Assembly: GCF_000143085.1 (NCBI RefSeq)
Contig: NC_014315.1
Location: forward strand, 1,890,001 to 1,954,000
Length of the DNA stretch: 64,000 bases
Direction: 5' to 3'
Origin: Nitrosococcus watsonii C-113
GTDB taxonomy: Bacteria > Pseudomonadota > Gammaproteobacteria > Nitrosococcales > Nitrosococcaceae
Shown here: piece by piece, positions 11,634 to 33,357 of the stretch
How positions within the stretch are numbered: the stretch's first letter is position 1
How the letters are laid out: each line of letters begins with the position of its first letter
The notes under the pieces: generated by a model
Told to the model about the DNA's origin: nothing
Seen by the model: only the letters and a program-made list of their open reading frames with translations
Database searches by the model: none
Translations under genes and position numbers: made by a program

Positions 11634-12422
11634 CTACGGTTTTAACCCGGCTCTTCCAAGGAGGGCCTTGACGTAGTTCGCTGGAATCGCATACGTAATT
11701 CCGCTGGGATGTTTAAGAACGTTTTCCTTACTGCCTTTAACAAAAACTTTATTGACCACACCTAGCACCCGTCCCGTATCCGGATCGTAGACGGGACTAC
11801 CGCTATTACCCGGATATGCGGTAGCATCTAGTTGAAACACTTTAAAAGGTTGCCGGCGCAGCTGTTGAATGCGCTGAGGATTAAGATCCTGGCTAGCTCG
11901 CCCTGCCGTTGCAACGGGAGTAATGGCCGAGATAATACCACGGTGGGTCACCGGATAGAGTCCCAACACGGGGCCAATTGGAAAGCCGGTAAAAGCAACT
12001 CCCTCTCCTTCACGAACTTGCGAGGGGTTGCCTAGTGAAAGGAAGGATAAAGAGGAACCTCCTATCTTCAGGAGGGCAAGATCATGAATGGCATCTACCA
12101 CCACTTTCTCCGCCCGTCGTACCTGGCCTTTAACGCCGACAAAAACCGCAATATATTCGTTACGCTCCGAATTAAGCTCAGAAGGCAAAACATGGGCATT
12201 GGTCACCACATGGCGACCATCAGCAACGACAAAGCCTGTTCCCCGATAGTGTGCTTGGACGCCCCGAATGGAGGCATAAGTACCTACCCCCACCACTGCT
12301 CGTTTGACATGCTCGATGGTATCCACCAAACCTGCCCGAGAAGAGGTTACCATAAGAAACAATAAGCCAGTTGCTAGCGACAATCTCCATGCCTGTAACC
12401 ATATTTGACGATAAAGACTCAC
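11634..12422 (-). CDS. Trypsin-like serine protease, secreted
   Basis: A 262-residue protein with a signal sequence or membrane anchor (residues 10-30) and a chymotrypsin-fold protease domain. The catalytic triad is visible: VTNAHVL (His, near residue 76), HDLALLKI (Asp, near 112) and YPGNSGSPVYD (Ser, near 205). There is no PDZ domain, unlike DegP/DegS. GTG 12422 overlaps the stop of the upstream VanZ-like gene by four bases (GTGA), so the two are translationally coupled. The substrate is unknown. In this locus it may process surface or exported components, which is inference. Confidence 0.87.
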   Translation of the reverse strand: MSLYRQIWLQAWRLSLATGLLFLMVTSSRAGLVDTIEHVKRAVVGVGTYASIRGVQAHYRGTGFVVADGRHVVTNAHVLPSELNSERNEYIAVFVGVKGQVRRAEKVVVDAIHDLALLKIGGSSLSFLSLGNPSQVREGEGVAFTGFPIGPVLGLYPVTHRGIISAITPVATAGRASQDLNPQRIQQLRRQPFKVFQLDATAYPGNSGSPVYDPDTGRVLGVVNKVFVKGSKENVLKHPSGITYAIPANYVKALLGRAGLKP

Positions 12423-13693
12423 TGGGCTTCTCGGGGGTTGTTTTTCGGCAAAATTCTATCTTTACAAAAATAACGAGAATGTTTACGGACTTCTAGGCGT
12501 AACGGCATATAAAACCAAGGCAACCACCAGGCAAGCAACGCCAATAGGGCATCAGTAATATCGGGATATCGGCCCGCAAGGTATTGCTGATTCCATTCCA
12601 GGGCGAACATCCCAACCAATATCCCGATGCCACCCCAAACCAGCACCCTTCTGGGCCGCTGGGGGCGCAAATGAAGCACCAGTAGGCTCAGAGCAAAAAA
12701 AGGCCACGCGCCAATGATTGTATCAGCGATACCAATCACCGTGCCGGTTAGGTGACCCTTAAAAGGTATCCAATTGAAGCTAGAAAATAACCAAGTTGTC
12801 CCTATGCGCAACTCATCAATCATAACCGCCCCAAGGAGTGCAACGATACCGCTTAAAACGGCAGCCTTTGGCGGTAATTTCTGTAATAAGGCAAAACCAA
12901 TTATTCCTATGCCCGCGCCTACAAGGGCTTCGCCGGAAAGGGGGCGACCTACCACAGGTATTTTGAAAAGAAGCACCGCGCCAACGAATACAGCAAACCA
13001 CCAAAATACTGATTTACACGATTTTAAGGCTATAGTACTCACCGTACCCAGCGCCATAACAGTCAAAACATATACCGCTATCTGACCGAAGTCCAGCGGA
13101 ATCTGCCGAGTCAAGGCATACCAAAGTGGCTTTAACTCCTGGCGCAAGCCAGAGATATCAAGCGACGGAACCCAGGGACTGGTTTGAGAAAGTGCCCATA
13201 ACCCTAGTAAAAACACGCTCGCGCTGGCCAGGGCTCCAGAGCGAATATAGGCTTGGCGCAACGCAAGCAGACTTTCATAAACCCATCCTTGGGGGCGCAC
13301 CACGATAAAGAGCAGCCCGCCTGCAAGTGCTCCAGCGCCATTAAGCGCCAAGTCTAGGAATGAAGAGACTCGGCTGGGTAGGTAAACCTGTAAAGATTCG
13401 AGTAGAAAACTTAGCATGACCCCCCCTATGAGGGCAGCAAAAATTTGGGCAATGGGGGAGCGGAAGATAGCGGCGCGGGCAAGCAGAAAACCAAAGGGGA
13501 TATAGACAACAATATTAGTAAAAATATCTGAATAGCTGACATTCGAGCCATGCTCAAAAATAGGCCGCCACTCCGATTCCAATGGAACTCGCCAATCGTG
13601 CCAAGGATAAAGAGTGCCGTAGACCAACAATCCCCCGTAAATAACTAGCGGCAACCAATAAAACGGCTTGGCCTGTTCATTGGAATACATCAT
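12419..13693 (-). CDS. VanZ-like multi-pass membrane protein
   Basis: A 424-residue integral membrane protein with about ten hydrophobic segments. The N-terminal third is VanZ-like: residues 13-35 form the first membrane span with YPWHDWR after it, followed by FTNIVVYIPFGFLLA and LLESLQVYLPSRVSSFLDLALNGAG, the last two being the typical VanZ helices. VanZ-like proteins often occur in polysaccharide and exosortase loci, but their activity is not settled. The gene is coupled to the protease downstream. A strong inverted repeat overlaps its start codon region. Confidence 0.8.
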   Translation of the reverse strand: MMYSNEQAKPFYWLPLVIYGGLLVYGTLYPWHDWRVPLESEWRPIFEHGSNVSYSDIFTNIVVYIPFGFLLARAAIFRSPIAQIFAALIGGVMLSFLLESLQVYLPSRVSSFLDLALNGAGALAGGLLFIVVRPQGWVYESLLALRQAYIRSGALASASVFLLGLWALSQTSPWVPSLDISGLRQELKPLWYALTRQIPLDFGQIAVYVLTVMALGTVSTIALKSCKSVFWWFAVFVGAVLLFKIPVVGRPLSGEALVGAGIGIIGFALLQKLPPKAAVLSGIVALLGAVMIDELRIGTTWLFSSFNWIPFKGHLTGTVIGIADTIIGAWPFFALSLLVLHLRPQRPRRVLVWGGIGILVGMFALEWNQQYLAGRYPDITDALLALLAWWLPWFYMPLRLEVRKHSRYFCKDRILPKNNPREAQ

Positions 13694-16903: not shown

Positions 16904-17111
16904 GTACTTCGATTCCCTTCTAAATGGTAAGAAATACAGCATGATTATTATCTATTATTGGTTAATTTATGATGCTGACTAATTTATAATATCGCCCCTA
17001 CCCTGTCCAGCGTTACACTGCATCAAAGCGAAGAGGGAAAGTCCTGTTATAGTGATCAGGATGGCAGCAACACATTAAACAGTCTTACCGCTCATGCCTA
17101 TCGCGGGCGCC

Positions 17112-19298
17112 CTAAGGGCGGGGTAGGTGCGCTGATGCTTGCAGAAACTCTTGCCAGTATCGGCAAATTATTTCCAGTTTATCGAGCACGATGCATGCTG
17201 CATCAACTTGTTGCGCTAGCCGCTGCGCTTGGTTTTCGCCAATAGAAGGATCGAAGCAAACCCGGGATACCAATCGAGATCCTGGCGCAATTCTAAGCGC
17301 GCCAAGCCAATCCCCTTCTTCATACCGGATTCGCACGGGCTGTCCAATATGACAGCATTGCGCTGCGAGCCGCCGTTCCGCCTCCGAACTCCCAGCAGGA
17401 AGCCAACCGGACAAATCAGCGTTAAGCCAATGGTAGGCTATAACCGCCTCATCATAAGTTAATAGGGCCGAGGCTCGGCGTATCAGGAAAGTAAAAATGG
17501 TAGGTACGCTGTCCCATGATTCACGCTCTTCCCCATTGGCGCGACAATAAACAGATGGCGGTAGCGGTTCGATAAATGAGCGTCCCTCCATACGGTCGCG
17601 CAGCATTTCGGCAAAGTCCCGGAAAATACTGTATCGGCTTCTTGAATTGGCAGCGAAAAAAGCTTCCATTTCCCATAGTGCCGCCTGCCATCGCAGGAGC
17701 AATCCGTAGTTAGGTGAGGTACCCAAATGCAGTACTTGTTGGGGCCACCGCCACTCCTCCGGCACCTCCCAGCGGCTCACATAGCCGCTGAGACCTTGAG
17801 GAAAGGGACTGTCCACATCAATACTACTAGCTACCGATGGGGGAATCAGGAGCGCCCCGGCAAATGGCGGGCCAGTAAAAAATTTTGATCCAGTCGCAAT
17901 GACGTAGAAACCCCGACGCAGATAGCTAGCCAGATTAGCGCGACTCACCCGCATTTGGGCTGCATCTACAATGACCGCAACTCGCTCGCCATAAACTGCT
18001 TGCAATTTTGCAATACACTCGAGACTAGGTGCCCCTAAGCCTGTTTTGGAGGAATCCAATAAATGAATAAGCGCTGAGCTGCCTGCTTTAATGCCCGAAC
18101 TCACCCATTTATGCAAACGGTCTTCCACTTCGCCGCTCGACAAGGGCTGCCCCGTCTCATCGCGCAATTCCAACTCCTGCACTTGAATCTGATCGCAGTG
18201 GAGACCCTCCACTGCCGTACCAGGCTGAACCGCGCCGCCCAGTGGACTAATGTGGTCGAAATGACAACCGGCAGCCGCATAGCGGCTGCCACTACCAATT
18301 TCTCGTGGGGCAATAAGGATATTTAATAAGGGCCGTTTGGCAACTGCGCTGGCACAATGTACTGCAAACAATTCCGCATCCGTACCCGAAGGTGTCAACA
18401 AAATTTTAGCGCCAGGCACTTGCTCAAGCAGTAATACTTGAGCCAAGTGCCGCCTTATCCGCTCCATCTCCTCAGCAAATCCGCTTACCAACTGACCAGC
18501 TAAGGCCAATGGGAACAGGCAACGACGCTGCGCTTCGGCATATGCAAATCCCGCTTCTGAAATCGATGATGCCGTACAGGTTGAAAACGTAATGGCCCAG
18601 GGGCGCGGGCTGGGGCTGCAGCCATATTTATTAAGTCCTGAACCCGGATGGACCAAGAGTCGTTCATCGCCCCCCAGGGTCAAGAGGCGCTCGGTGGGCT
18701 GCGCAAGCGCCAAGCACTCCGCCACACGCCTAATGGCAATTTCATCTTCTTCACCGACGGAGGGAAGCAGATCGTTAAAGGCATGAATAAAACGGAGGAA
18801 GGGCGCCAAGCCTGCGATAATAGCTTGCGGCGAACTTTGCTGGGCACGCAAAGATGCCAAAGATCTGAATGCCTCTCCCAGCCAAGAGGGATCGGCGGCT
18901 AGCACCTGGTCTTGATCTTCTGAGGGCATACTTTCAAGAAAAAGCAGGCTGGAATGCAATGCAAGCAACGCCGCTGAAACTGCTTGGCTGGAGGTATGCG
19001 CCGCCTGCGTCCAGGCAAGTTGTTCCACCCCTTGTCGTAAATGAAAAACTGCCAATGCAGGATGTGCAAGTGCCGAGGGACTCATCCGCAAAGTTCCAGG
19101 CTGCTGGATATGCAAAGGTTGTTCCTCCGCAGACACCTGGAGTGAAAAGCCTCGCAACAATATATTGATAGTGGGAGCCTGGAGTGTTAATTCCAGAACG
19201 CTGCATTGCGCTGGTGACAGAGATACCTCTATCACCGGCTTTACAGCGCGGGTCAACTCGCCATAGGTTCGAGAAACTTCTTCAGCATCTATCGTCAT
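17112..19298 (-). CDS. PLP-dependent fold-type I enzyme with extra N-terminal domain
   Basis: A 728-residue protein. Residues about 205-680 look like an aminotransferase class V/decarboxylase-type PLP enzyme: TPSGTDAE (302-309) for cofactor phosphate binding, VDAAQM with Asp445 for the pyridine nitrogen, and GSKFFTGPPF with Lys472 as the probable Schiff-base lysine. The first 200 residues form an additional, mostly helical domain that I do not recognise. Substrate and reaction are unknown. It is the third gene of a compact operon, 34 bases after the ATP-grasp gene, which follows an asparagine-synthetase-like gene. The set suggests building or attaching an amino compound, which is inference. 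Confidence 0.75.
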   Translation of the reverse strand: MTIDAEEVSRTYGELTRAVKPVIEVSLSPAQCSVLELTLQAPTINILLRGFSLQVSAEEQPLHIQQPGTLRMSPSALAHPALAVFHLRQGVEQLAWTQAAHTSSQAVSAALLALHSSLLFLESMPSEDQDQVLAADPSWLGEAFRSLASLRAQQSSPQAIIAGLAPFLRFIHAFNDLLPSVGEEDEIAIRRVAECLALAQPTERLLTLGGDERLLVHPGSGLNKYGCSPSPRPWAITFSTCTASSISEAGFAYAEAQRRCLFPLALAGQLVSGFAEEMERIRRHLAQVLLLEQVPGAKILLTPSGTDAELFAVHCASAVAKRPLLNILIAPREIGSGSRYAAAGCHFDHISPLGGAVQPGTAVEGLHCDQIQVQELELRDETGQPLSSGEVEDRLHKWVSSGIKAGSSALIHLLDSSKTGLGAPSLECIAKLQAVYGERVAVIVDAAQMRVSRANLASYLRRGFYVIATGSKFFTGPPFAGALLIPPSVASSIDVDSPFPQGLSGYVSRWEVPEEWRWPQQVLHLGTSPNYGLLLRWQAALWEMEAFFAANSRSRYSIFRDFAEMLRDRMEGRSFIEPLPPSVYCRANGEERESWDSVPTIFTFLIRRASALLTYDEAVIAYHWLNADLSGWLPAGSSEAERRLAAQCCHIGQPVRIRYEEGDWLGALRIAPGSRLVSRVCFDPSIGENQAQRLAQQVDAACIVLDKLEIICRYWQEFLQASAHLPRP

Positions 19299-19332
19299 CT
19301 GATAGCGTTCCTTAAAACCTCCCTACCGTCCA

Positions 19333-20466
19333 TTAGGAGGGCATATATCCATATTTGCGCAGCATCTCTCTCAATGGACCTCGATTCATGCCTGCATCAA
19401 CCACCAACTGGGGCAAGCGTACCCCGCCGATGATATTGACTTCAAGCATCACCGGCCCCTGATCGGTCAGCGCAATATCCCACGCCTGCATCTTTAAGCC
19501 TGGCAACGATGCCGTGCCTTCCCGGCAGAGTTCCAGCACCTGCTCCCAATCGGGTAGCGTAATCCCTACCAGCCGTTTTCCCGTATCCGGGTGCTCGGAA
19601 ACATTCCGACGCTGTAACCCCAAACCCGTAAACAGCCTCCCCACGACTCCCGTCTCAGGGTCGATAGGCCCTACTAAATTGCCAGGCTCCCAATAATTGT
19701 CGGCCATTGCGTTGCCCACGGCGACTTTCCAGAGAGTGCTAATCACAATAGGCTCTGGATCCAGTAAAGTCACTACGCGGACACTGCAAATGCGGCTACC
19801 ACACAACTCCAATAACAGGGGGTGTGGCTTCAAAAGCTCCTGAAAAATCCACCCTTGTTTCGCCAGGGGCTCGAGAGCAACCACAAAATCCGTCACAGCC
19901 ATACGCTGTCCATTAGTCAGCACTAGCTCATCGCTTTCACGCTCAAGCCGCTCGATGGCGTATACATTTTTACCCCACATTCCAAGCACAGGTTTGGCAA
20001 CCAAAGGAAATAGCGCCTGCTCGCGAAGAAACTGCCCAAGCTGCATACCATCGCGCACCGCTGTCAAGGGGCCATGGCGGCGGATCGGATGAAAAAGCGC
20101 ATGCAGTTTGGGCGAAGGCAATTGCAAGGCATCGAACAGGCCGTATGCCACCAATTTATCGTTCGCAATGGCATGCCAAAAGTGGGAATCGAATAATTCC
20201 CAAAGATCATATGTCATGTGTCGGCCAAGAAAGGCCCTCTTCTGCCCGGGACTAAAGCGCCGATCATCGAACAAACAATACTCGTAATACTCATAGGGAG
20301 CCAAGCGGCCCTTACCCCAGCGCAAGGCAATCATCTCAATAGCCTGGCTCAACAATGATTTCCCAGATGCCTTACGCGCTGCCCTGCCATGTTCCCACAA
20401 CTCACCCGGCAACGCGACAAAATCCTTGCAAAACCGGCTAACGCGCTGGCGCAGTCTCCAAAACAT
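19333..20466 (-). CDS. Sugar-transfer-associated ATP-grasp protein
   Basis: A 377-residue ATP-grasp enzyme resembling the family named sugar-transfer associated ATP-grasp. Features: an N-terminal helical part with YYEYCLFD, LVAKPVLGMWGKNV with Lys158 and a glycine-rich loop for ATP, WIFQELLKPHP, and the metal-binding end MLEVNIIGG (Glu342, Asn344). ATP-grasp enzymes activate a carboxylate as acyl phosphate and join it to an amine or thiol. Members of this family sit in exopolysaccharide loci and are predicted to link amino acids or peptides to sugar-bound groups; this is family-level knowledge, not shown here. The gene is only six bases after the upstream gene, so it is probably co-transcribed. 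Confidence 0.85.
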   Translation of the reverse strand: MFWRLRQRVSRFCKDFVALPGELWEHGRAARKASGKSLLSQAIEMIALRWGKGRLAPYEYYEYCLFDDRRFSPGQKRAFLGRHMTYDLWELFDSHFWHAIANDKLVAYGLFDALQLPSPKLHALFHPIRRHGPLTAVRDGMQLGQFLREQALFPLVAKPVLGMWGKNVYAIERLERESDELVLTNGQRMAVTDFVVALEPLAKQGWIFQELLKPHPLLLELCGSRICSVRVVTLLDPEPIVISTLWKVAVGNAMADNYWEPGNLVGPIDPETGVVGRLFTGLGLQRRNVSEHPDTGKRLVGITLPDWEQVLELCREGTASLPGLKMQAWDIALTDQGPVMLEVNIIGGVRLPQLVVDAGMNRGPLREMLRKYGYMPS

Positions 20467-20472
20467 GACAGT

Positions 20473-22062
20473 TTAATTGCTACCGTGGCTGGCGATCTTA
20501 GAGGCGGCGGGCGCCATCGCCGGAATGGAGGTTGGATCTCCCAGGCCAATCATAGTAGGGCGATAGCGGTCCTGCACCTGCGCAACAGCCCAATGAAACT
20601 TGTATCCCGTTCGGGAAATTAATAGGCGAAGGGAAATAGGCATTCGCAGGGGCAACCCCAAATTATTGCCCCGCCACACGATCCAATGATATAAAGTAGC
20701 CTGCATTTGGCGCAGGCGGTGGCGCATCGATCGCCGGTTGCGAGACTCAAGTTCCTCCGAAAATGCCATAAGAACCTGTCGCGATCCTGCCGAAAACATC
20801 GCCCCATTATCCAAGGTCACCCAAAAAGGTTGAGTAATCGCCTTTTTCTCCTGTCCAAATGATTCCCGCTCAATGCCTGCCGATTCGGCCAGCCGCCGAG
20901 GAATCGGCCTATCGTAAGTACCTCCAAGGCGCCAGGGAGCCATTTCAGGGGATTGGGAAATCCGCAGGATCTCGTCGTGGCGGGGCATCGTCAAGACCGG
21001 CAACGGTGCGTGAATGAACCCCAATCGCAACCGGAATTCCCCCAATGAGGCCCCGGAAGGATCCTTGCTCTTGAATTGGGTGCTATCCTCAATGGCTTGT
21101 GGTTCGAAGTCCCAAATGGTATCTCCTCGGAATCCAGTGAAAAATACCGTGCCGGGGAGGTGTTCGGCCAGCACCGACATCACTACATCATCGCCGCCAT
21201 TGCCCGTAGCCAGAAACTCGGCCTCGGGAATAGCTTCATTTTCAAAATAAAGAGAGCGGTCAAATTTCATGACATTGAAACCAAGCTGCCGCCCGATTTG
21301 ACCGCCGTCATCACAAGCATTCTGTGGATTACCCACATCGCCGTTAAGCTCCATCCGGGCACTGCAAAAAGTTACCGCTTCAGTACCACCACATTTACGC
21401 GCGATGACGGCGCACGCCGGCGAATCATAGCCGGTGGAAACAGTGGCAAGCGGCTTATAGGTAATGGAACGGCGAAGATCATTCGCATTATCCATTACCT
21501 GTTGCGCCATCCCTTCGAGATAGCCCGCATAATCCTCATAAGTGCCAAAATGGGGAAGAGCGGGTGGACAGTCCGTATATATATGAAGGTCGCGATCAAT
21601 CCGGAATCGGCGGTAGTACTGAAGCTGAATCCGTCGGCCTTGCGCGGTAGGAACCCACTTTCGGGCACGGTGATAGCCTTTTACTACCGACAAAAACTCC
21701 GACTCATACCCCACGTGCATCGGATCGATCGCATCGTCAAGCACCGCAAGCAGGTAAATAAATGAATTGGAGACAAAAAGACAATCACCATCCCGGCAGA
21801 AATGCAGGCGCTCCAGAGTATGGCTACTGGGGATGAACACTACTTGATCATCGGAGAGAATTGCCCCGGAACCCAACACTGCTTTGGCGTCTAACAAGCC
21901 ACGCCAATCGTAAGGTCCATCCCATCCGCCTTCAAAGAAAAAATTAACTTGACTCTCCACCCAAGGTCCGTGCTCTACAGTCACAATATCTGAGCCCTGC
22001 CTAAGATAAGCACACCACGCTAGCCGCGGCAACGCCGCGTTCATTTGCATTCTAAACTTCAC
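20473..22062 (-). CDS. Asparagine-synthetase-like ligase, paralogue A
   Basis: A 529-residue member of a four-gene family in this window. The first 170 residues resemble a degenerate glutaminase domain with no N-terminal Cys (it starts MKFRM). The second part is the PP-loop ATP pyrophosphatase domain with STGYDS at 209-214, EAEFLATGNGGDDVV, FTGFRGD, LGEFRLRLGFIH, and the shared family block YDRPIPRRLAE followed by SFGQEKKA. It probably adenylates a carboxylate and forms an amide, as in beta-lactam synthetase or asparagine synthetase, without using glutamine. The GTG at 22062 aligns with the starts of the paralogues. It heads an operon with the ATP-grasp and PLP enzymes. Confidence 0.83.
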   Translation of the reverse strand: MKFRMQMNAALPRLAWCAYLRQGSDIVTVEHGPWVESQVNFFFEGGWDGPYDWRGLLDAKAVLGSGAILSDDQVVFIPSSHTLERLHFCRDGDCLFVSNSFIYLLAVLDDAIDPMHVGYESEFLSVVKGYHRARKWVPTAQGRRIQLQYYRRFRIDRDLHIYTDCPPALPHFGTYEDYAGYLEGMAQQVMDNANDLRRSITYKPLATVSTGYDSPACAVIARKCGGTEAVTFCSARMELNGDVGNPQNACDDGGQIGRQLGFNVMKFDRSLYFENEAIPEAEFLATGNGGDDVVMSVLAEHLPGTVFFTGFRGDTIWDFEPQAIEDSTQFKSKDPSGASLGEFRLRLGFIHAPLPVLTMPRHDEILRISQSPEMAPWRLGGTYDRPIPRRLAESAGIERESFGQEKKAITQPFWVTLDNGAMFSAGSRQVLMAFSEELESRNRRSMRHRLRQMQATLYHWIVWRGNNLGLPLRMPISLRLLISRTGYKFHWAVAQVQDRYRPTMIGLGDPTSIPAMAPAASKIASHGSN

Positions 22063-23215: not shown

Positions 23216-24811
23216 ATGTCTTGGAATTTAACTTGTTGTAAAGTTTCGGTGCCACCTTTGGCATGGTGTTTGCTCTTGTATAAAAACGGCCAAGCCATTT
23301 TACTGCATGGCGCTAATGTCGAAATCAGTGATTTGGGTTTTGTTGAAGGTGCCTGGAGTGGTGCGTTTATTGATTACGCTTTTGATAGAACAGATACTTT
23401 CATGGGGACAGGGGGGCGTATACGTAGCTCGACATTCATTGTTTCGACCCCCTCACACAGCCTGGATCGTATCCACTACACGAGATGTAAACATTCAATT
23501 ATTCTATCTAATTCACTGGTTTTCTTACTAAATCAACTAGGAGACCGGTTAGATCCCTGCAACCCTTTCTATGTGAGGGACTTGTCCAGCTACATTGGCG
23601 GCAAAAATAAAATGCGTAAGTGGATCAAAACCCTTTCAAAACGCAAAATCTACCTTGCGCGTATCGCTAATCTTGAAATTAGCACCGACTTGGACGTGCG
23701 AGTTATCCCAAGACAACTTCCCGTTATTGGCGAGGATTTTGCTAGTTTTAGCGATTTTCTGAGTAATACTGTTTCGGCGCTGGCAGAGAATGCCCGGGAC
23801 CCTAAACGGAAAATAAAATACCATCCTGTGTCGACAATTTCTTCTGGCTACGATTCTTCAGCTGCGGCCGTTCTGGCCAAGAAGGTCGGATGCAAAACCT
23901 GCTTGACTATCGCAAATGCACGGGATGATTTAAACGAATTTACAAACCTTGACGATAGCGGTGCACCGATTGGCGATCGTTTGGGGCTAATAGTGTGCGA
24001 GTTTCGCAGAGATCAATATTTAAAATCAGCAGATTATCCAGAAGCTGAGTTCCTTGCATCCGGAACGGGCGGCAATGATGTGATACTTGCCGATGCTGAG
24101 CCCAAACTGGCCAATTCATTGCTCTTTACAGGGTTCCATGGTGATAAGGTATGGCAACGAAATAAAAAGAAAGTAGCTGACGGCGATATGATCCGTGGTG
24201 ATACCAGTGGCTCTTCTTTGCTGGAATTCCGCCTTCGCACTGGCTTTATTCATTTACCGATACCGTGTATTGGTGCAACCCGTCAGACGATAATATCGGA
24301 GATATCCAATTCACCCGAAATGAAACCTTGGTCGGTTGGTGGCGCATATGATCGACCGATTCCAAGGCGGGTTGTTGAAGAGGCGGGTGTGCCAAGAGAA
24401 ATGTTTGGTCAAGAAAAGAAAGCGGTTGGGCAGCCATTCAACGCTACTCCCAACGTATCATTAGTGCATGGCAGGCCGCTGCAACAACTACTTAGCCAGA
24501 ATTCGTATGCAGATTTCCAGATCTGGCTAAAAAATCTAAGTTGTAAAGATACATTGCTCAATAATCGTTCATTTAAATTAATGCGTTTTCTACATTCACC
24601 CTTACCTTGGCGGATAAGAAATTTGTTGTATACAATAGGAATAGTCAAACGAACAATTAGTCTATTAGATGAATTTCGCTATACTTATCCGCTCACCGAG
24701 CATGATTATTTATTGCAATGGGCCATTGAAAAAATGGCGCATGTGTATGACGTTGATCATTCAGATTTACCGCATAATTTAATCCCCTCAAAACCACTAA
24801 ACGAATCATAA
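23216..24811 (+). CDS. Asparagine-synthetase-like ligase, paralogue B
   Basis: A 531-residue paralogue of the proteins at 20.5, 26.5 and 30.3 kb, here on the plus strand. It starts MSWNLTCC, with no Cys2, so the glutaminase function is probably absent. PP-loop SSGYDS is at 209-214, exactly as in paralogue A; EAEFLASGTGGNDVI, FTGFHGDKVW, LLEFRLRTGFIHLPIP and YDRPIPRRVVEEAGVPRE follow. The gene is AT-richer in feel than its neighbours and is preceded by nested IS remnants, with no gene within 1.1 kb upstream. It converges with the flippase gene, 64 bases away. Substrate unknown. Confidence 0.82.
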   Translation: MSWNLTCCKVSVPPLAWCLLLYKNGQAILLHGANVEISDLGFVEGAWSGAFIDYAFDRTDTFMGTGGRIRSSTFIVSTPSHSLDRIHYTRCKHSIILSNSLVFLLNQLGDRLDPCNPFYVRDLSSYIGGKNKMRKWIKTLSKRKIYLARIANLEISTDLDVRVIPRQLPVIGEDFASFSDFLSNTVSALAENARDPKRKIKYHPVSTISSGYDSSAAAVLAKKVGCKTCLTIANARDDLNEFTNLDDSGAPIGDRLGLIVCEFRRDQYLKSADYPEAEFLASGTGGNDVILADAEPKLANSLLFTGFHGDKVWQRNKKKVADGDMIRGDTSGSSLLEFRLRTGFIHLPIPCIGATRQTIISEISNSPEMKPWSVGGAYDRPIPRRVVEEAGVPREMFGQEKKAVGQPFNATPNVSLVHGRPLQQLLSQNSYADFQIWLKNLSCKDTLLNNRSFKLMRFLHSPLPWRIRNLLYTIGIVKRTISLLDEFRYTYPLTEHDYLLQWAIEKMAHVYDVDHSDLPHNLIPSKPLNES

Positions 24812-24875: not shown

Positions 24876-26348
24876 TTAACTAACTGGCCACAACCGACTT
24901 CGAGTCTGGGAAAATAATAACCTCAATTCGTCCCAGATGGGATGACGAAGCGCAAGCACAGCCACCAGCCAGCCTACCCCAGCTCCAACGGCGCTAACAA
25001 TAAAAGCCTGCCAATGGGGCTGTCCGCTCTCAGCCGACATCCCTAGATAAAGCAAGGGAAATGCTATCGTAGCAGTAGTGACCAATAAGCTTGAAACAGT
25101 AGCTTTTATGTAGACCCTACCTTTGAGGCCAATAGCGGAACGCATCAGCAAAGAGGAATAAAGTAAACCCACCACGGCCGGAAAGACCATGGCGAAAGCA
25201 ACAATTTCTAATCCATAAGGAATAGCTAACATCACCGCCAAAATCGTTGCCAACAGCGTGGCCACCCTTAACCGTACTAATAAGTGTATCGCACCAACCG
25301 CAACCAGAGCCTGAGCGGTAAAGGCGAAAAGCGCATCAACCGCCGCATAGATGGACAGAATACGAGCTAGAGGAACTGCCGCATCCCACTGATCACCAAA
25401 GAGGATTCGCACCATTGGGAATGCCGTTATGGCAACAAAAGCGTAGCATGGCCACGCGAGGACCGTAATTAGCCTAAGCCCATGGGCATAAAAATCTGCG
25501 ACGCTCTCTCCCGCACGGTGTTTCGCTGCCATGTGAGGCAATATTGCCGGACTTACGGCCGATAGCACCGTGCGATCGAAGAGTCGAATAACCCCAAGCG
25601 CCTTACTAAAGAAACCTACTGCCGCGGCACTCAAATACCGACCAATGACCACTTCGGGCGTTCCCTGCTGAAGCTGGAACGCAATGGTTGAGAGCGTAGC
25701 CCGACCGCCAAAGCTCATAACTCTTCGCCACTCATAAAATCCTGGGCGCAAGATAAAGTGGCTAGGCCCTAGAAGACGCGCCAACAGCACCGTGGTAATT
25801 ACACCAAGGAGTGCGCTCCAGGCTAAGCTCATAGCACCAAGTCCTATCCATGCGAACCAAATACCGCTTGCTGCACGGACAAATTCACTGGTGACACCCA
25901 CCAGGAAAATGGTGGCGAACTGCATCTCCCGATTCAGGTACGAGAGAACTACAGAACCGAACGGAATTAAAACGAAATTAATGGCAAGAACTCGCAGAAT
26001 TTCGGTCACCCGCTCGTCCCCGTAAAAATCAGCGATCCAAGGCGCAGCAATCGCTAGCACGATGGCCATAGACCAAGCTATCGTCAGCGTGATTCCAAAG
26101 GCGGAGCGGATACGATCCATAGTAAGCTCCTTCTCCTGCACGATATACCGGCCTACGCCAAAGTCACGCATGGAATGAGCAAGATTCACGAAAACCACCG
26201 CCATGGAAAAAATACCGATCTCGGCCGGAGTAAGCAGGCGCGCCAGCACCATCGTGGAAACGAGGGAAATCACCAACGTTACATAGCGGTTCAGGGTGGT
26301 AACCACTATTGAGTACCGAACACCGGGCTTAGTCTTACTTTCAAGCAT
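24876..26348 (-). CDS. Wzx-type polysaccharide flippase (MOP family)
   Basis: A 490-residue membrane protein of the oligosaccharide flippase/polysaccharide export family, predicted to move lipid-linked repeat units across the inner membrane. Twelve or more hydrophobic segments are visible, starting at about residue 15. ARLLTPAEIGIFSMAVVFVN, a block near residue 40 typical of RfbX/WzxC-like proteins, is followed by MRDFGVGRYIVQ. An upstream TTG at 26384 is in frame; ATG 26348 has a purine-rich GAAAGAGAG site and gives the normal N-terminus. It sits between two of the asparagine-synthetase-like genes, so it may export what they modify. Confidence 0.88.
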   Translation of the reverse strand: MLESKTKPGVRYSIVVTTLNRYVTLVISLVSTMVLARLLTPAEIGIFSMAVVFVNLAHSMRDFGVGRYIVQEKELTMDRIRSAFGITLTIAWSMAIVLAIAAPWIADFYGDERVTEILRVLAINFVLIPFGSVVLSYLNREMQFATIFLVGVTSEFVRAASGIWFAWIGLGAMSLAWSALLGVITTVLLARLLGPSHFILRPGFYEWRRVMSFGGRATLSTIAFQLQQGTPEVVIGRYLSAAAVGFFSKALGVIRLFDRTVLSAVSPAILPHMAAKHRAGESVADFYAHGLRLITVLAWPCYAFVAITAFPMVRILFGDQWDAAVPLARILSIYAAVDALFAFTAQALVAVGAIHLLVRLRVATLLATILAVMLAIPYGLEIVAFAMVFPAVVGLLYSSLLMRSAIGLKGRVYIKATVSSLLVTTATIAFPLLYLGMSAESGQPHWQAFIVSAVGAGVGWLVAVLALRHPIWDELRLLFSQTRSRLWPVS

Positions 26349-26528
26349 ACTCTCTTTCTTGTCCTTTTCTACCCCAGGCTGCAAGTAAGGGGCATAATAT
26401 GGCGACAGCTTTGCTTACCGCCTACGTCTAAGTAATATCCCCGATAATCTGCTAAATGGGGAGATCGCGGGCAGTGTCCACACCCTCAACGTAGCATAAG
26501 TTATCGTCTAGCAATCCGAGTACTTAAA

Positions 26529-28031
26529 TTACTTGCGCAGCTCAAGCATGGTAAACTTGCTGTATCGGTCCTTAGCTCGCGCTATAGCCCAAGGAAAGAT
26601 AAATTGCCTGAGGTAAGTCGGCTTACCCTCGAACCAGCTTGCTGTACGCCAAATAGCCGGCTTCCGCTTGGCCCATTCGGCATAACGATTGACGGTTTGA
26701 TGAAACCACCGATCCAAACTGGCACTAGCGAGAGGAGGTACTTTTCCCCTCTTCCACCATGTCGATCGATGCTCCTTTAACCAGATTAAAAAATCTTGCA
26801 AAGAAGAGGGTGTTAGAAACTCATCGTAATTATGAATTATTACTGACGCCATACGCTTCTCCATACCGAAGGCTTCTCGAGGGACTCCTTTATTTTCGAC
26901 GATACGCCGACATATGGGACGGCTGTATTCACCACTGATATCCCACTGACTCATCTCGGGATCATTGCTGATCCTATTCACCGCTTCTATAGACCGAACT
27001 GCCCAGAACGGGACTGGGCAATGAATAAAACCAGCCCATAGTCTAAACTCAGTTAAACCCAGCCCAGAAGGATCACCGCGAACGATATTGGCGCCCAGAT
27101 GCTTAGTGCGTTTGCCCCACATTTTATCGCCATGATAACCCGTCATAAGAACCCGTCCCGCTAAAGTCTCCGCCGCTGCACTAAAGCGTACTTCCTCTCC
27201 CATGCTATTGGCGGCAATAAAAGGAATTTCCGGTTTCTGCAAACATCGCCATGCGGTACCTGACAAAACGATGGGGCGCACACCGAGATAACTGGCTATG
27301 CCTTCCCCACTATCCTCTTCGTTGAGGTGAGTCCGATCAAAGCAAATCGCCTCATCGCACCCAACTCCACTAGCCAAGGCCATTAGCGTCGGCGAATCAT
27401 ATCCCGTAGACAACGTCCCTAACATACGCAGGTGTTTGGAACGGGTGGGAGAACAAATATTTTCCGCCAGCTGCTCCATGGTACTTTCCAGAAAACCCAG
27501 ATATTGTCCGAAATTAGCAAGCTCCCTATTTACGCTAGGCTTAGGAACGACAGAAGCCATGTTCCCATCCCACCGCACATTATCGAAATAAACAAGCTCG
27601 ACATCTCCTTTAGAAGTTGTTAAAAGCCGCTTGTAATTATCGATACCGTAAACAACTGAATACAGATCTTTATAGTAAAATCCATATGCTGGATCTAGAT
27701 AAGCATCAACTACAGATAACAAACATACAAGTGAATTGGACAACCATACGCTTCTATCCCTTCTTAACATATTCAAACGATCAACCGTCGATCCAGACGA
27801 GACGAATATCATGACTGAATCCCTTATCCGTCCTCCGCTTCCCGCAATTACATCAGTTTGATCAAATCCTCCTGCCTCAAATGATCCGGGCCATACCGCT
27901 TCACAAAAGAAATCCGGGGTAACCTCTACCCGTGAACCATGGTAAATAATAATTTCTTGATTACCTTTGTAACATTCCGCAAGCCATGCTTGACAGGGCC
28001 AGCCGCTCATTAATTGATATTTAAAATGCAT
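26529..28031 (-). CDS. Asparagine-synthetase-like ligase, paralogue C (divergent)
   Basis: A 500-residue member of the four-gene family. The N-terminal region matches the others (HGSRVEV, GSGGRIRDS, WLSNSLVCLL) and has no Cys2. PP-loop STGYDSPT is at 208-215; MTGYHGDKMWGK, LTEFRLWAGFIHCPVPF and YSRPICRRIVENKGVPREAFG follow. It departs from the family at the segment that reads EAEFxAxGxGG(D/N)DV in the others: here it is PFIAANSMGEEVRF. Also Q-P after the KKA block is replaced. This may mean altered substrate or loss of activity. It diverges from the small ORF and ligase E. Confidence 0.8.
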   Translation of the reverse strand: MHFKYQLMSGWPCQAWLAECYKGNQEIIIYHGSRVEVTPDFFCEAVWPGSFEAGGFDQTDVIAGSGGRIRDSVMIFVSSGSTVDRLNMLRRDRSVWLSNSLVCLLSVVDAYLDPAYGFYYKDLYSVVYGIDNYKRLLTTSKGDVELVYFDNVRWDGNMASVVPKPSVNRELANFGQYLGFLESTMEQLAENICSPTRSKHLRMLGTLSTGYDSPTLMALASGVGCDEAICFDRTHLNEEDSGEGIASYLGVRPIVLSGTAWRCLQKPEIPFIAANSMGEEVRFSAAAETLAGRVLMTGYHGDKMWGKRTKHLGANIVRGDPSGLGLTEFRLWAGFIHCPVPFWAVRSIEAVNRISNDPEMSQWDISGEYSRPICRRIVENKGVPREAFGMEKRMASVIIHNYDEFLTPSSLQDFLIWLKEHRSTWWKRGKVPPLASASLDRWFHQTVNRYAEWAKRKPAIWRTASWFEGKPTYLRQFIFPWAIARAKDRYSKFTMLELRK

Positions 28032-28451: not shown

Positions 28452-30197
28452 ATGATTTTTGGCGTGCTGTCTCTTCAAGCAAAGCATGAGGCTAGCCAAA
28501 TATTGGCGGCACTTTTTAAACGGATCCATCGAGATGGTACGCCCGATCAAATCCGAACGTTTGACTTTCGCCTGGCTATCACGACCATAGCAGGCACTCC
28601 CAACAGTCGACCTCGAATAAATATAATACCCTTTTCAACGGGCCAACTTGTCATCCTCGCCGATATCCCCATTAGAGAATACGTAAGCTATTTAGAAAAA
28701 ACCGATGCACTTTCCCCAGATCTCCCTTTAGCTTGGTCGCTACCGGGAAGATGGATCGCTATAACCGTGCCCCATGACATAAATAAACCTATCCAGTGGG
28801 CCTCAGACCCTATCGGAGCACAGTGGCTCTATGTTACGGAAACCTCCGGTGGGCTGGTATTTTCCGATAATTTTTGGGCTGTTGCTAAAACGGTTAGCAG
28901 CAGCCAAGGTATTGACCCAAAAGCCCTTTGCCACGCTCTGGTCCTAGGTTACAACCTAGGAGAAGAAACCATCACGCCTGGCATAAAGCTCGCTCCCGGG
29001 GGCTGCGTTTACCAATGGGATGCTGGCGATTTTCGTATTATCCGTAGCCATCAGCTTGAATACGGCGATAAGATGGCCGGAGCGACCGAAGCTGAGAAGA
29101 TTACTCAAGTTCAAGCTGCCTTTTATGAAGCCGCTCTTTCTTGGAAGAAGGTTCTACCGGCCCGAACTGCTCTTTCTTTATCGGCCGGCCTAGACTCTCG
29201 AACTGCCTTGGCTTATCTCCAGCGAGCCGGCGTAGAGATGTCTTTCTACACTTTCGGGCAGCCCGGCAGCACCGAAGTGATAGGAGCCCAGTCCATCGCA
29301 CAGCGTGTTGGTTATAGCACTCATCTCTTTAAAATTCCAGATGCCTCTTGGGATGACTGGGAAATAAATATCCAGACGCTGGGTACTATCGGTCCATTAC
29401 AGCAATCAGGCTGGGCACATAGCTGGCGGACCATGTTAGCTAACGAAGCAGATGCAGTCGTGATCGGCTACTTGGGAGATGCATTAACAGGAAAACACCT
29501 TAGCTCGCAGCAATTTAACCGAAGCGACTGGGTCAATTACTGGACTCATTGGAGCTTAAGTTGGGAATGGCAGGAGTGGCCTGGAATCCGAAAAAAATGG
29601 CGCAGAGATCTCCCTAATAACCTCGCCGCTAGCTTTCGGCAAATTACCCAAAAACTAGAGGTTGCCTTCCCACACCAGCAGGCATTTCATCTTGATTTTT
29701 ATTGCCGTCAACGCCGCTGGGTAGCCTCACAGCCTAATGATATAGGGGCGGCGCTGCTTCCCGTGTGCTTCTTCTATCATCCAGCCATCTGGAAAATATG
29801 GACAAATCTGGCCCTATCTGATCTAGAACGCCAACGCCTTTACAGGCGAGCAAACCACCAGTTATTCCCCGATCTTTTCCACCGTCCAGTATCACCCGCA
29901 GGAGATCTGTTTCAACGAGCCTCTCGGAAGCTTACCCGGTTTCTCAGGAGAACGGATACCGCGCTACCGCCATCAGAACGGCCGCGCGTAATTGATAGAT
30001 CGCGAGCACTAGAAAGAAACCAGCAACAAATCATTGCCCAATTAGAATACAGCCGTGAACTACTAGAAGAGGTCGTAGATGTTGATTTCGTCCTAGAAAG
30101 GATAGGCGCCTTCGAGTTACAACGACCATCCGAAGCAGAGTGTGCAATGATCATGAGAGTAGTGAATGCATCCCATCTCATTTCGGCTATTATCTAG
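28452..30197 (+). CDS. Asparagine-synthetase-like ligase E, glutaminase Cys missing
   Basis: A 581-residue protein of asparagine synthetase fold but clearly distinct from paralogues A-D. It begins MIFGVLSL, where functional enzymes have MCGI, so residue 2 is Ile rather than the nucleophilic Cys. The N-terminal domain still keeps the later signature DPIGAQWLYV / GGLVFSDNF and the LAPGG segment at 180-184. The PP-loop is SLSAGLDSRTALAYL with SAGLDS at 244-249, and YLGDALTG takes the place of GDGGDE. It is likely an amide-forming or adenylating enzyme with ammonia or a substrate amine as nucleophile. It is convergent with paralogue D, separated by a strong hairpin. Confidence 0.8.
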   Translation: MIFGVLSLQAKHEASQILAALFKRIHRDGTPDQIRTFDFRLAITTIAGTPNSRPRINIIPFSTGQLVILADIPIREYVSYLEKTDALSPDLPLAWSLPGRWIAITVPHDINKPIQWASDPIGAQWLYVTETSGGLVFSDNFWAVAKTVSSSQGIDPKALCHALVLGYNLGEETITPGIKLAPGGCVYQWDAGDFRIIRSHQLEYGDKMAGATEAEKITQVQAAFYEAALSWKKVLPARTALSLSAGLDSRTALAYLQRAGVEMSFYTFGQPGSTEVIGAQSIAQRVGYSTHLFKIPDASWDDWEINIQTLGTIGPLQQSGWAHSWRTMLANEADAVVIGYLGDALTGKHLSSQQFNRSDWVNYWTHWSLSWEWQEWPGIRKKWRRDLPNNLAASFRQITQKLEVAFPHQQAFHLDFYCRQRRWVASQPNDIGAALLPVCFFYHPAIWKIWTNLALSDLERQRLYRRANHQLFPDLFHRPVSPAGDLFQRASRKLTRFLRRTDTALPPSERPRVIDRSRALERNQQQIIAQLEYSRELLEEVVDVDFVLERIGAFELQRPSEAECAMIMRVVNASHLISAII

Positions 30198-30341: not shown

Positions 30342-31910
30342 TCAATTAGAATTAGAAGCGGATTTCAGCTCTGTAGAAGCGTATCGTTTACGGATTTTTT
30401 CCACAGCCCAATGAAAAAGCAAGCTATACTCCCTACCTGAAAAGGTTCCCGATGCTGGGCGGGGGACATCTAGATTTAATATCTCTATAAGCGAGCTAAG
30501 CCGGGCTTTGGAAAGATACCACCCCAAGGTTCCGTACCGTATCTTCCGAAATAGCCGAACTCTCACCTCCTCCGCCATGTGCCGGGTGATAGCTTGCTCA
30601 TGAGGCTGGTTGCTAAGTTTCCTTTCTCGAAACTGTAGAAAATCATCCCAAGATTCTTTAGTAAACATTGTCGAAATATTGCTGGCAACCCACGTAGGTT
30701 GGGTCACAGCTTTCTTGATGGTACCAAAAGATTCCCTCGCCACCCCCGCTTCCTCAGCTATTCGCCGCGGAATAGGACGGTCATACCAGCCACCTAAGCG
30801 GAATTTAGCCATCTCATGGGATAATGAAATTTTATTAAGCTCAGGCCGCCTGTACATCGTTAACAAAGGAATAGGTAAATTCAAGAAACCTACCCGTAGC
30901 CGGAACTCAGACATGGAACCACCGAGGCCGCCGGTTGTGGACCGCCCGTAGCGGTGGTGGTTGACATTCTTAGTAGTGACCTTCCACAAACCATCGCCGA
31001 AATCCCCCTTTACGAAAATCCGCTTCTCAAGTACGGTACTCAAGGGTGCATAAACAACATCGTCGCCGCCGTTTCCGCTAGCCATGAATTCAGCCTCGGG
31101 ATATTGTTCCAACTCAAGATAGGCTTCCCGTTCAATTGGCAGTAAGGTAATTTCAAGTGCCTTGGCAATGTCGGTTGCATCCTCCATATGCCCGTGTCGC
31201 GAATCAGCAAACGTTACTGCTTCCGTGCAACCAATTGACTTAACAAGCGCGGTACACGCTGGCGAATCATAACCCGTTGAAAGTGAGCTTAACGGCGTAT
31301 ACCGAATAGTTCGAGCAGGGTCTGTAGCATTATCATAAATAGCACAAATAGATTTAGCGAGGTAATCGATGTACTCCGTATAATCGGTAAATGCAGGAGG
31401 CGTAGGACGAGATATTCGCCGTTGAATGAGGTCATGGCCAACCGCAATGCCATCATGATAGTGAAGAGTAGCCTGGTGCTTTCCATCGAGGGGAATTGAA
31501 GTTACCGCTTTGTTATACCCTTGCAGAATTGAGAAAAAATCCGTTTCGTAGAAGCCATAACTGCTTAATAGCTGGTGTGAGCTGGCCTCTAACAGATAAC
31601 AGAAGGAGTTAGAAATATACAGTACATCTCCATTGCGTATACTGTGCAGCCGTTCGGTAGGGTAAGTCGCGGGGAAAAAAAATACTTCGCTGGCGCTAAT
31701 CATACCACCCGATCCTAGCAAGACTTCGGACTCACCCAATCCACCCTTGGAAAAATCGCCCAGCCAAGCACCCTCCACAAAGAAAGTAGCTATCTGTTCT
31801 ACCCAGGAGCCGTGCTCGACAAATATCGTATCATTCCCCTTAATAATTTTCGCACACCATGACAATCGGGGAATCGAGGTGTTTTTACGATAACAAAAAC
31901 GAAAGCTCAT
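30342..31910 (-). CDS. Asparagine-synthetase-like ligase, paralogue D
   Basis: A 522-residue member of the four-gene family, closest in pattern to paralogue A. Starts MSFRFCYRKN, no Cys2. N-terminal block VEHGSWVEQ and GSGGMIS; PP-loop STGYDS at 211-216; EAEFMASGNGGDDVVYA; MSEFRLRVGFLNLPIP; WYDRPIPRRIAEEAGVARESFG. One difference is that the (F)TGFxGDxxW motif is VKGDFGDGLWKV. The C-terminus (YSLLFHWAVEKIRKRY) matches the WA-E/Q-K ending of A, B and C. Substrate unknown. Confidence 0.83.
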   Translation of the reverse strand: MSFRFCYRKNTSIPRLSWCAKIIKGNDTIFVEHGSWVEQIATFFVEGAWLGDFSKGGLGESEVLLGSGGMISASEVFFFPATYPTERLHSIRNGDVLYISNSFCYLLEASSHQLLSSYGFYETDFFSILQGYNKAVTSIPLDGKHQATLHYHDGIAVGHDLIQRRISRPTPPAFTDYTEYIDYLAKSICAIYDNATDPARTIRYTPLSSLSTGYDSPACTALVKSIGCTEAVTFADSRHGHMEDATDIAKALEITLLPIEREAYLELEQYPEAEFMASGNGGDDVVYAPLSTVLEKRIFVKGDFGDGLWKVTTKNVNHHRYGRSTTGGLGGSMSEFRLRVGFLNLPIPLLTMYRRPELNKISLSHEMAKFRLGGWYDRPIPRRIAEEAGVARESFGTIKKAVTQPTWVASNISTMFTKESWDDFLQFRERKLSNQPHEQAITRHMAEEVRVRLFRKIRYGTLGWYLSKARLSSLIEILNLDVPRPASGTFSGREYSLLFHWAVEKIRKRYASTELKSASNSN

Positions 31911-32535: not shown

Positions 32536-33357
32536 GGTAGTGCTCAAAAAGTAATGCTGCTCAGAATTATCGTATGACTTCTTGGTTGTAATGACAAATA
32601 AAGAATTTGATTGCACCGATATGATTAGCCAGTTTTTTCGAAAATAACAGGGTTTGACGAACCAAGCGCGAGACGCGCTGGGGCAAGGTGCAGTTAAACC
32701 GTTCGATGGCATTAGTTTGCCCCGAGCCGTTGGGACAAATTTGATGCTGCGCTGTAGGAATAATGCCCCGATAGGCCTCCCCATTATTGTCAGTGATAAA
32801 GGTAGCTTGTTGACGATAGCTTGTCGGAAGACGTAGCCACACCTGATGGGCACTGTCCTGTGAGCAGTCGCCGATATAGAAGGCCACTACTTGGCGTGAG
32901 CATGGATCGAGCGCCAGCTAGAGCCATTGCTTATTCGCTTTACAACCGACAAAGCTCCACAATTCATCAGCTTGGACTTCCAGACAAAGGAGTTCAATGG
33001 CCCGAGCGGTTGAACACCTAGATCATCAGTCAAGGGCGCGTATAGCTCATCGATAAACTGCAGCAACCACGTCGAGCTTCACCTCCAGTACCCGACAAAT
33101 ACCTCGCAACGACAGCCGCTCTAGCAGTCATTTTTTGACCAAGGTGCGCCTGGTCTCGTCAATTCGATGGGCGTCAGCCACAAACTGTCAACCACGCACC
33201 AGAGAGGCGTAATTTTGTTTACCGTAGTGGGGGCGACCGTTTTTCTTAATATGCGATTTCGCAACGTGGGCAACGCAAGTTGTTCATTGGTTGCTTCCTA
33301 TTACAACGGAGTCGCTCTGTTTTCACAAATTCAAAGCATTACTTTTTGAGCACCACC
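32536..33357 (-). mobile_element. IS1-family element with intact ends and an 8-bp target duplication
   Basis: The ends GGTAGTGCTCAAAAAGTAATGCT (23 bases from 32536) and the complement at 33357 GGTGGTGCTCAAAAAGTAATGCT match at all but one position. They are flanked by the direct repeat GATAAGTC at 32528-32535 and 33358-33365, an 8-base duplication as expected for IS1. The 822-base size fits the family (0.7-1.1 kb). The transposase inside (see next entry) has several stops and frameshifts, so it is inactive unless complemented. Confidence 0.9.
32567..33282 (-). pseudogene. IS1-family transposase (InsA/InsB-like), broken
   Basis: From the minus strand at 33282 the order of IS1 protein blocks is present: LRCPRCE with a zinc-ribbon, then in a shifted frame KKNGRPHYGKQNYA, LLERLSLRGICRVLEV, and finally, in an unbroken 106-codon frame (32887-32567), GDCSQDSAHQVWLRLPTSY, TDNNGEAYRGIIPTAQHQ, SGQTNAIERFNCTLPQRVSR and FSKKL with HYNQE at the end, corresponding to the InsB DDE region. 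In-frame TGA codons in the N-terminal half and multiple shifts mark decay. Confidence 0.85.

Follow-up and report, generated by a model that had tools for sequence, protein, structure and literature searches.

Among the closest described systems is the WbpS/VimA pathway of Porphyromonas gingivalis and Tannerella forsythia. As set out in the passages on WbpS and VimA in PMC7468200, a uronic acid is amidated there by an AsnB-like enzyme, and a sugar of a surface glycoconjugate receives an aminoacyl group. According to these passages, the P. gingivalis AsnB-like protein WbpS makes the uronamide, while VimA sets the seryl or glycyl group of the type IX secretion system (T9SS) linking sugars. ATP-grasp genes are described in the flagellin-modification clusters of Shewanella (in part of PMC3765264) and of C. 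difficile (in part of PMC5207246), and a section of PMC12419801 proposes that VanZ families act on lipid-carrier-linked sugars. Here we describe three adjacent genes, encoding a probable PP-loop ligase (LigA1), an ATP-grasp ligase and a pyridoxal phosphate (PLP) enzyme, in a stretch of 64,000 nucleotides from the 3.37-Mb genome of the marine ammonia-oxidising bacterium Nitrosococcus watsonii C-113 (contig NC_014315.1, G000:C1:1890001-1954000; hereafter, the window). A 15-kb part of the second contig of this genome matches plasmids of Nitrosococcus oceani (39% covered, 97% identity) and N. halophilus (44%, 84%), in agreement with the genus. The product proposed here would resemble that of the WbpS/VimA pathway. 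The enzymes differ: WbpS belongs to the amidotransferases, the matches of VimA are to N-acetyltransferase/FemAB-type families, and the WbpS and VimA passages of PMC7468200 mention neither a PLP enzyme of this family nor a PF14397 ATP-grasp.

Tentatively, and with somewhat less than even confidence, we read the triad as the enzymatic core of a Nitrosococcus cluster for an amide-decorated exported surface molecule, for which a lipid-linked glycan or exopolysaccharide (EPS) unit is the likeliest candidate. As judged from their sequences, the parts support amide-bond chemistry on carboxylates with an amine that is not drawn from glutamine. The surface-glycan reading is supported by synteny, by the ratio of nonsynonymous to synonymous substitution rates (dN/dS), by the invariant PP-loop and PLP-site residues, by a Polysacc_synt_3 flippase, and by the polysaccharide loci in which relatives are found in three other genomes (G262, G365 and G418). 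The superfamilies are known, while the combination of LigA, PF14397 ATP-grasp and PLP enzyme appears to be a new variant. Of the three families, LigA and the PLP enzyme match no Pfam or NCBIfam profile over cut-off. Among the papers listed in searches of an open-access library, none addressed this three-family combination in its title or the start of its abstract, most subscription papers lying outside that coverage.

The three genes lie on one strand, and the open reading frames (ORFs) of the window leave gaps of 6 bases between LigA1 and the ATP-grasp gene and 34 bases between the latter and the PLP gene, confirming the layout given in an earlier note on this DNA (Table 1). The same note had proposed two ATP-dependent ligase folds and a PLP enzyme; this is borne out by the PF14397 score, the PLP model with its conserved residues and the PP-loop of LigA, the type of LigA being probable. 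Orthologues with 72-91% protein identity are found in two other Nitrosococcus genomes (G001 and G002), and dN/dS is 0.12-0.16 for all three genes in both genome comparisons. The triad is under purifying selection, and on account of these two observations all three ORFs look like real genes. A TAG within the ATP-grasp match of G002 is the end of the ORF, which stops there at 375 aa, as compared to 377 in the window.

The PLP enzyme was modelled full length in a single piece, with a mean predicted local distance difference test (pLDDT) score of 73.9 and low confidence in the N-terminal part. Its best match in VIA-align (VIA) was 4ixo (Z 21.3, root mean square deviation (rmsd) 3.6, 340 residues), the 50 rows shown spanned Z 19.4-21.3, and Foldseek listed several fold-type-I groups. 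All 18 rows of the family alignment share S304-G-T-D, D445, Q448 and T-G-S-K472 without exception. We take K472 to be the Schiff-base lysine, D445 to face the pyridine nitrogen and S304-G-T-D to form the phosphate-binding loop. Because the model match goes together with the invariance of S304-G-T-D, D445, Q448 and K472, we assign the enzyme to fold type I, class V-like. It has the fold and the lysine position of cysteine desulfurases and alanine-glyoxylate aminotransferases, but it differs from them in its low identity (11-16% in the ten best VIA rows), in having no conserved cysteine and in the lack of an Aminotran_5 match: no Pfam family, Aminotran_5 included, matches it at E up to 1, and no NCBIfam profile scores over cut-off.

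In VIA, the PLP model comes closest to NifS/C-DES chains, and LarE is among the PP-loop neighbours of LigA. Both would fit a sulfur-transfer pair, in which a NifS-like PLP desulfurase serves a PP-loop thiolating enzyme such as LarE or MnmA. We consider such a pair most improbable, given that none of the cysteines is invariant in the 18 PLP rows (13 have Cys at position 227, two have Arg and three Tyr) and that LigA also aligns over its N-terminal domain to AsnB and to beta-lactam synthetases. The desulfurase/thiolation pair was rejected on the missing invariant cysteine, since C227, which is invariant in an 11-row alignment, is replaced by Arg or Tyr in each of the five rhizobial sequences.

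The PLP enzyme carries an additional N-terminal domain of about 200 residues (window 18699-19298), as the earlier note had pointed out. This domain is common to all three Nitrosococcus proteins, those of the two other genomes being 59 and 69% identical to the window copy, and was seen only in them: it is absent from the 10 other homologues aligned, and five rhizobial proteins (511-561 aa) are too short to hold the whole of it. PDB sequence searches with the PLP enzyme and with its N-terminal domain returned nothing.

The ATP-grasp enzyme scores 108.9 bits against PF14397, well over the family cut-off of 31.4, and matches TIGR02291 weakly (E 2.1e-9, far under its cut-off). E342 and N344 of the E-x-N motif, which presumably forms the metal site of ATP-grasp enzymes, are invariant in five of five aligned rows. 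Profile searches with this PF14397-type alignment and with that of a second ATP-grasp-like family (see below) gave weak hits only, the best being a cyanophycin synthase (E 0.0067), a TPR protein (E 0.0069) and a RimK-type protein (E 0.048). The family entry gives no reaction, and the window enzyme departs from the plain PF14397 setting in being coupled to LigA and a PLP enzyme. In a class-level sample of 369 genomes, the window's own included, 79 gave ATP-grasp matches, mostly short C-terminal stretches. The best relative outside the genus (G418, 34%) has a polysaccharide-type neighbourhood, which includes a TIGR03108 amidotransferase (958 bits, over cut-off), a polysaccharide-deacetylase-like protein and relatives of two other window proteins. 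In G181, two such ATP-grasp genes lie near relatives of the VanZ-like and trypsin-like genes of the window.

LigA1 is probably a PP-loop ATP pyrophosphatase of the AsnB/beta-lactam-synthetase type; this placement comes from the PP-loop, from comparing profiles and from a model of low confidence. The PP-loop S-[STA]-G-Y-D-S (S209, G211, Y212, D213 and S214), a variant of SGGxDS, is invariant in all 16 rows of the family alignment, and reads S-T-G-Y-D-S in LigA1 itself. Neither LigA1 nor its paralogues match any Pfam or NCBIfam profile over cut-off, PF00733 and TIGR01536 included; a PF00733 search of the window's genome gave seven matches, none at LigA1, and a PDB sequence search with LigA1 found nothing. 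In hhalign, the family aligned to five AsnB-like proteins of its own genome (E 9.5e-5, probability 59%, 108 columns around the PP-loop), but to the AsnB-like protein of the block only at E 0.0037 (probability 9%). Most of the 50 rows listed by Foldseek for the model bear PP-loop ATPase titles, one is an alcohol dehydrogenase, and none has E <0.001. In VIA, the low-confidence model matched GMP synthetase (Z 10.0, rmsd 3.9, 162 residues), beta-lactam synthetase 1m1z (Z 9.1, rmsd 4.9, 283 residues, over residues 9-406) and human asparagine synthetase 6gq3 (Z 9.1, rmsd 5.2, 289 residues); the scores are ties, and the longer of these model alignments would favour an AsnB/beta-lactam-synthetase layout. 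The fold of LigA is likely, but less secure than those of the PLP and ATP-grasp enzymes.

LigA is like AsnB and the beta-lactam and carbapenam synthetases in its PP-loop ATP-pyrophosphatase motif, and it may have their two-domain layout. It is unlike them in having S-[STA]-G-Y-D-S instead of SGGxDS, several paralogues per genome and no family match over cut-off. Because none of the 16 rows, in which start codons were set mechanically and three rows are over-long, begins with Met-Cys, the glutaminase nucleophile of asparagine synthetases (the N-terminal Cys2) appears to be missing from LigA; no cysteine is invariant in these rows. We presume that beta-lactam synthetase likewise lacks this cysteine. 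We read LigA as a putative carboxylate-adenylating ligase whose amine donor is something other than glutamine.

The order and strand of the triad are identical in three of four Nitrosococcus genomes (G000, which is the window's own, G001 and G002; the fourth is G003). The 6-base gap between LigA1 and the ATP-grasp gene is kept in all three, while the distances to the flanking genes vary widely. These three also hold LigA1 and the full-length ATP-grasp gene, and PLP relatives occur in 3 of 59 near genomes, all of them Nitrosococcus and the window's own among them. A genome search of G003 found neither LigA1 nor the PLP enzyme, and the ATP-grasp only as a 91-residue partial match, of a kind that is also present elsewhere in G000, G001 and G002 besides the real gene. 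As the genomes compared are close relatives, the shared gene order by itself carries moderate weight.

The triad is the middle of a longer co-directional run and not the whole unit; the boundaries of the compact triad, which the earlier note had taken as the unit, cut through a run with a flippase and further LigA copies. In G002 and G001, the same-strand run reads LigA3 – MOP flippase – LigA1 – ATP-grasp – PLP – VanZ-like – trypsin-like, and an AsnB-like gene and LigA4 lie beside it in all three triad-bearing genomes. The triad, flippase, LigA3, LigA4, AsnB-like, VanZ-like and peptidase genes are syntenic in these three. The AsnB-like protein has the PP-loop L-S-A-G-L-D-S and no Met-Cys start. 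The flippase is 2813 bases from LigA1 in the window, as compared to 144 in G002 and 123 in G001. LigA2 is identical at 98.98% over 1568 bases (window 23235-24802) to a second site in the same genome (L083:8405-9971), and its sequence marks it as a recent intragenomic duplication of a ligase gene. Because of this identity, the LigA2-bearing stretch looks like a recent interruption of the run. The gene with Ig and golvesin-type domains is a fragment in G002, and none was seen in G001.

Table 1. Genes of the triad and of the surrounding block in the window
Feature	Position	Strand	Basis and remarks
LigA1, probable PP-loop ligase	20473..22062	-	ORF, 529 aa, GTG start
ATP-grasp ligase, PF14397 'sugar-transfer associated ATP-grasp'	19333..20466	-	ORF, 377 aa, ATG start
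PLP enzyme, assigned to fold type I, class V-like	17112..19298	-	ORF, 728 aa, ATG start
MOP/Wzx-type flippase	24876..26384	-	PF13440 (Polysacc_synt_3), 212.6 bits; directly upstream of LigA1 in G001 and G002
LigA2, duplicated ligase	23216..24811	+	between LigA1 and flippase here, not in G001/G002
LigA3, LigA1 paralogue	26529..28031	-	orthologues in G001 and G002; relatives in G262 (48%) and G365 (44%)
AsnB-like protein	28452..30197	+	TIGR01536 at E 4e-8, below cut-off; orthologues in G001 and G002
LigA4, LigA1 paralogue	30342..31910	-	orthologues in G001 and G002
1030-aa protein, immunoglobulin (Ig), golvesin and CBM96-type domains	13850-16942		library matches; between PLP and VanZ-like genes
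VanZ-like membrane protein	12419..13693	-	downstream of triad; vanZ_1 at 18.9 bits, just below cut-off of 20; orthologues in G001 and G002
Trypsin-like serine peptidase	11634..12422	-	PF13365; 4-base overlap with VanZ-like gene; orthologues in G001 and G002

In the pathway that we propose, we infer the substrates, the order of the steps, the product and the co-transcription of the genes. The PLP enzyme would make or reshape an amino acid or amine. The ATP-grasp enzyme would activate a carboxylate as an acyl-phosphate and join it to an amine, for instance an amino acid onto an amino sugar. The PP-loop domain of LigA1 would adenylate another carboxylate, such as a uronic acid, and pass it to an amine that, given the missing glutaminase cysteine, would not come from glutamine. 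LigA3, LigA4 and the AsnB-like protein may act at other positions. The flippase in the run suggests a lipid-linked product, which it would move through the membrane; the VanZ-like protein and the peptidase would act on the far side.

Relatives of LigA outside the genus partly agree with a glycan. LigA1 matched, in the class sample, the window's own genome, G262, G365 and G382; one further match, in G375 (66 residues with four stops), was set aside as chance. The LigA genes of G262 and G365 lie directly beside an AsnB-like gene on the same strand and near a family-2 glycosyltransferase, with a heparinase-like gene nearby in G262 and a sulfotransferase in G365. A plasmid search with LigA1 returned nothing.

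Several observations weigh against the surface-molecule reading. No protein of the block matches a glycosyltransferase or sugar-nucleotide family. The LigA gene of G382 is near antiporter and methyltransferase genes, with no recognisable polysaccharide genes, and the window's genome has two further LigA places, the twin of LigA2 standing among genes that, by eye, do not look like polysaccharide genes. On a Lichenicola cladoniae plasmid, the one read of four plasmid records with an ATP-grasp relative, this gene has DNA-repair and toxin-antitoxin-type genes around it, and none of the genes within 10 kb is named as a polysaccharide gene. The AlphaFold2 model of LigA is poor (mean pLDDT 44.7), and its VIA scores tie between AsnB types and GMP/NAD synthetases (up to Z 10.0) and do not separate them. 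Promoter-like sites (8, versus 7.7 in shuffles) and terminator-like sites (11 versus 8.5) show no clear excess. No class genome apart from the window's own matches both the PLP enzyme and LigA1. The rhizobial plasmids also count here, where PLP relatives occur in 33 Rhizobiaceae records, five of which were read. On a Sinorhizobium meliloti plasmid, the relative (L128:8959-10494) overlaps by 4 bases the end of a non-ribosomal peptide synthetase/polyketide synthase (NRPS/PKS) gene, with nitroreductase and phosphopantetheinyl transferase genes downstream. On a Rhizobium leguminosarum plasmid, it (L129:8959-10494) overlaps by 4 bases the end of an AMP-binding gene, which is separated from an NRPS gene by an IS21 element. 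The other three loci show no recognised ligase neighbour. By analogy, the NRPS-linked relatives would point to peptides as much as to sugars.

These plasmid contexts bear on a somewhat unlikely alternative, in which the product of the cluster is a small exported metabolite, peptide-like or rich in amides. The PLP enzyme would supply an unusual amine or amino acid, which the PP-loop ligases and ATP-grasp would build into the product without an NRPS. Besides the PLP relatives that follow an NRPS/PKS gene in S. meliloti and an AMP-binding gene in R. leguminosarum, the alignment of the LigA model to beta-lactam synthetase 1m1z, the lack of a glycosyltransferase match in the block, and the PLP loci of other proteobacteria are consistent with it. 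At least 13 such loci were found outside the genus by scanning named genomes with two short peptide patterns, a scan that missed the rhizobial relatives. A second ATP-grasp-like family lies within about 2.1 kb of the PLP gene in all 13, and nine also carry a decarboxylase that resembles the PF00282 protein of L015. The loci are partly related to each other (four are from Duganella, and L013 and L016 are nearly alike), L012 and L087 have the same sequence as L024 and were left out, and L017 and L019 are short contigs in which a decarboxylase could escape notice. A match in L011 (55 residues with one stop) was set aside as chance. On the other hand, the Polysacc_synt-type flippase and the VanZ-like gene of the block, and the polysaccharide loci that hold the LigA relatives of G262 and G365 and the ATP-grasp relative of G418, argue for a glycan. 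The earlier note's route to an amino-modified sugar or a small peptide-like compound thus keeps part of its support: some LigA and ATP-grasp relatives lie in polysaccharide loci, and PLP relatives lie near ATP-grasp-like genes (13/13) or NRPS-type genes (two of five). Against it stand G382, the two other LigA places of the same genome, the Lichenicola plasmid and three of the five rhizobial loci, and both the amino sugar and the peptide are putative products.

The same distribution bears on whether the three genes belong together at all. The PLP enzyme occurs in two of the 369 class genomes (the window's own and G386), and G262, G365, G382 and G386 are all missing from the genomes with ATP-grasp matches, so that no second genome of the class sample holds two of the three families. 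The earlier note had asked for conservation of the triad as a unit in other genomes, and would have abandoned the idea if homologues never co-occurred elsewhere. Within the genus, three of four genomes hold the triad, but the PLP enzyme and LigA1 were found together nowhere else in the class sample, which outside the genus counts partly against the idea. The three genes could be co-located accessory genes of a surface-polysaccharide region with separate substrates, and not one pathway. None of the 13 PLP loci has a LigA or PF14397 gene, the genomes with LigA (G262, G365 and G382) match neither the PLP enzyme nor the ATP-grasp anywhere, and three of the five rhizobial loci lack a ligase neighbour. 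Even so, we hold separate functions to be unlikely, because order, strand and the 6-base first gap are the same in three of three genomes while the flanking distances vary, and because G003, which lacks LigA1 and the PLP enzyme, retains the ATP-grasp only as the partial match.

A link to protein sorting was also considered. The right half of the window (35367-63945) is an exosortase-A-type EPS locus, with TIGR03097, 03098, 03099, 03100, 03101 and 03108 over cut-off. It contains an O-ligase, an acyl-CoA ligase, a decarboxylase, two hydrolases and amidotransferases, one of them over the TIGR03108 cut-off, and XrtA lies 3.4 kb beyond the window end. N. oceani is listed with the EpsH/PEP-CTERM system in a part of Haft et al. 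2006 (PMC1569441). The triad could therefore belong to the exosortase-A/PEP-CTERM system and make an amino-acid-modified sugar to which XrtA might attach protein C-termini. We consider this very unlikely: in G001, 1.06 Mb separate XrtA from the triad, and in G003 XrtA is present but LigA1 and the PLP enzyme are not. On these two grounds, membership was rejected, and the triad is no standing part of the exosortase-A system.

Returning to the amide-decorated surface molecule, the triad may be one instance of a wider pattern. The PLP family could be a so far undescribed enzyme group that is dedicated to handling amines and has been teamed with several unrelated machines for ATP-dependent amide formation. 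In Nitrosococcus, these would be the PF14397 ATP-grasp and glutaminase-less PP-loop ligases. In other proteobacteria, the partner would be the second ATP-grasp-like family, often accompanied by a decarboxylase and in some cases close to flagellar genes, and on rhizobial plasmids NRPS-type genes would take this part. The Nitrosococcus enzyme would feed a multi-ligase line that puts a new amide-linked residue on an exported surface molecule. This extension is rather unlikely as it stands, and we lowered our estimate because the assignment of the second ATP-grasp-like family is weak (GSH-S_ATP at E 0.015, below cut-off; RimK-type chain at E 0.048). The profile of this family shows no significant similarity to the PF14397 rows (E 0.14). 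The family is absent from all four genus genomes and present in 16 of the 369 class genomes, of which only G386 also has the PLP enzyme. The decarboxylase – ATP-grasp-like – PLP cassette of other proteobacteria resembles the Nitrosococcus triad in setting the same PLP family near an ATP-grasp-like enzyme. It differs in that this enzyme shows no significant PF14397 similarity, the place of LigA is taken by a decarboxylase and the PLP enzyme has no such N-terminal domain. As the PLP family recurs near different ATP-dependent amide-forming enzymes, a single substrate would predict the chemistry at several loci. It would also tell whether AsnB-type ligases without a glutaminase add groups other than simple amides to the surface glycans of bacteria.

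Some minor observations concern these cassettes and the window. A Nitrosococcus relative of the decarboxylase (33-35% identity) was considered as part of the system and rejected, as it is located elsewhere and is also present in G003. In L013, L014, L016, L024, L115, L120 and L122, the second ATP-grasp-like family occurs with the decarboxylase and/or the PLP enzyme, often within about 10 kb of flagellar or chemotaxis genes. These neighbours are CheZ in L013, FlgE/MotB in L014, FliM in L016 and flagellin/FliD in L024 according to Pfam, and were recognised by eye in L115 and L120. L120 and L122 have a SerC-like gene, judged from its start sequence, beside the ATP-grasp-like gene. The cassette near flagellar genes is possibly one for flagellin modification or for a metabolite. 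In the window, positions 32536-33357 are 87-93% identical to an element of G001 (L084:8063-8902), which we would guess is probably a decayed insertion sequence.

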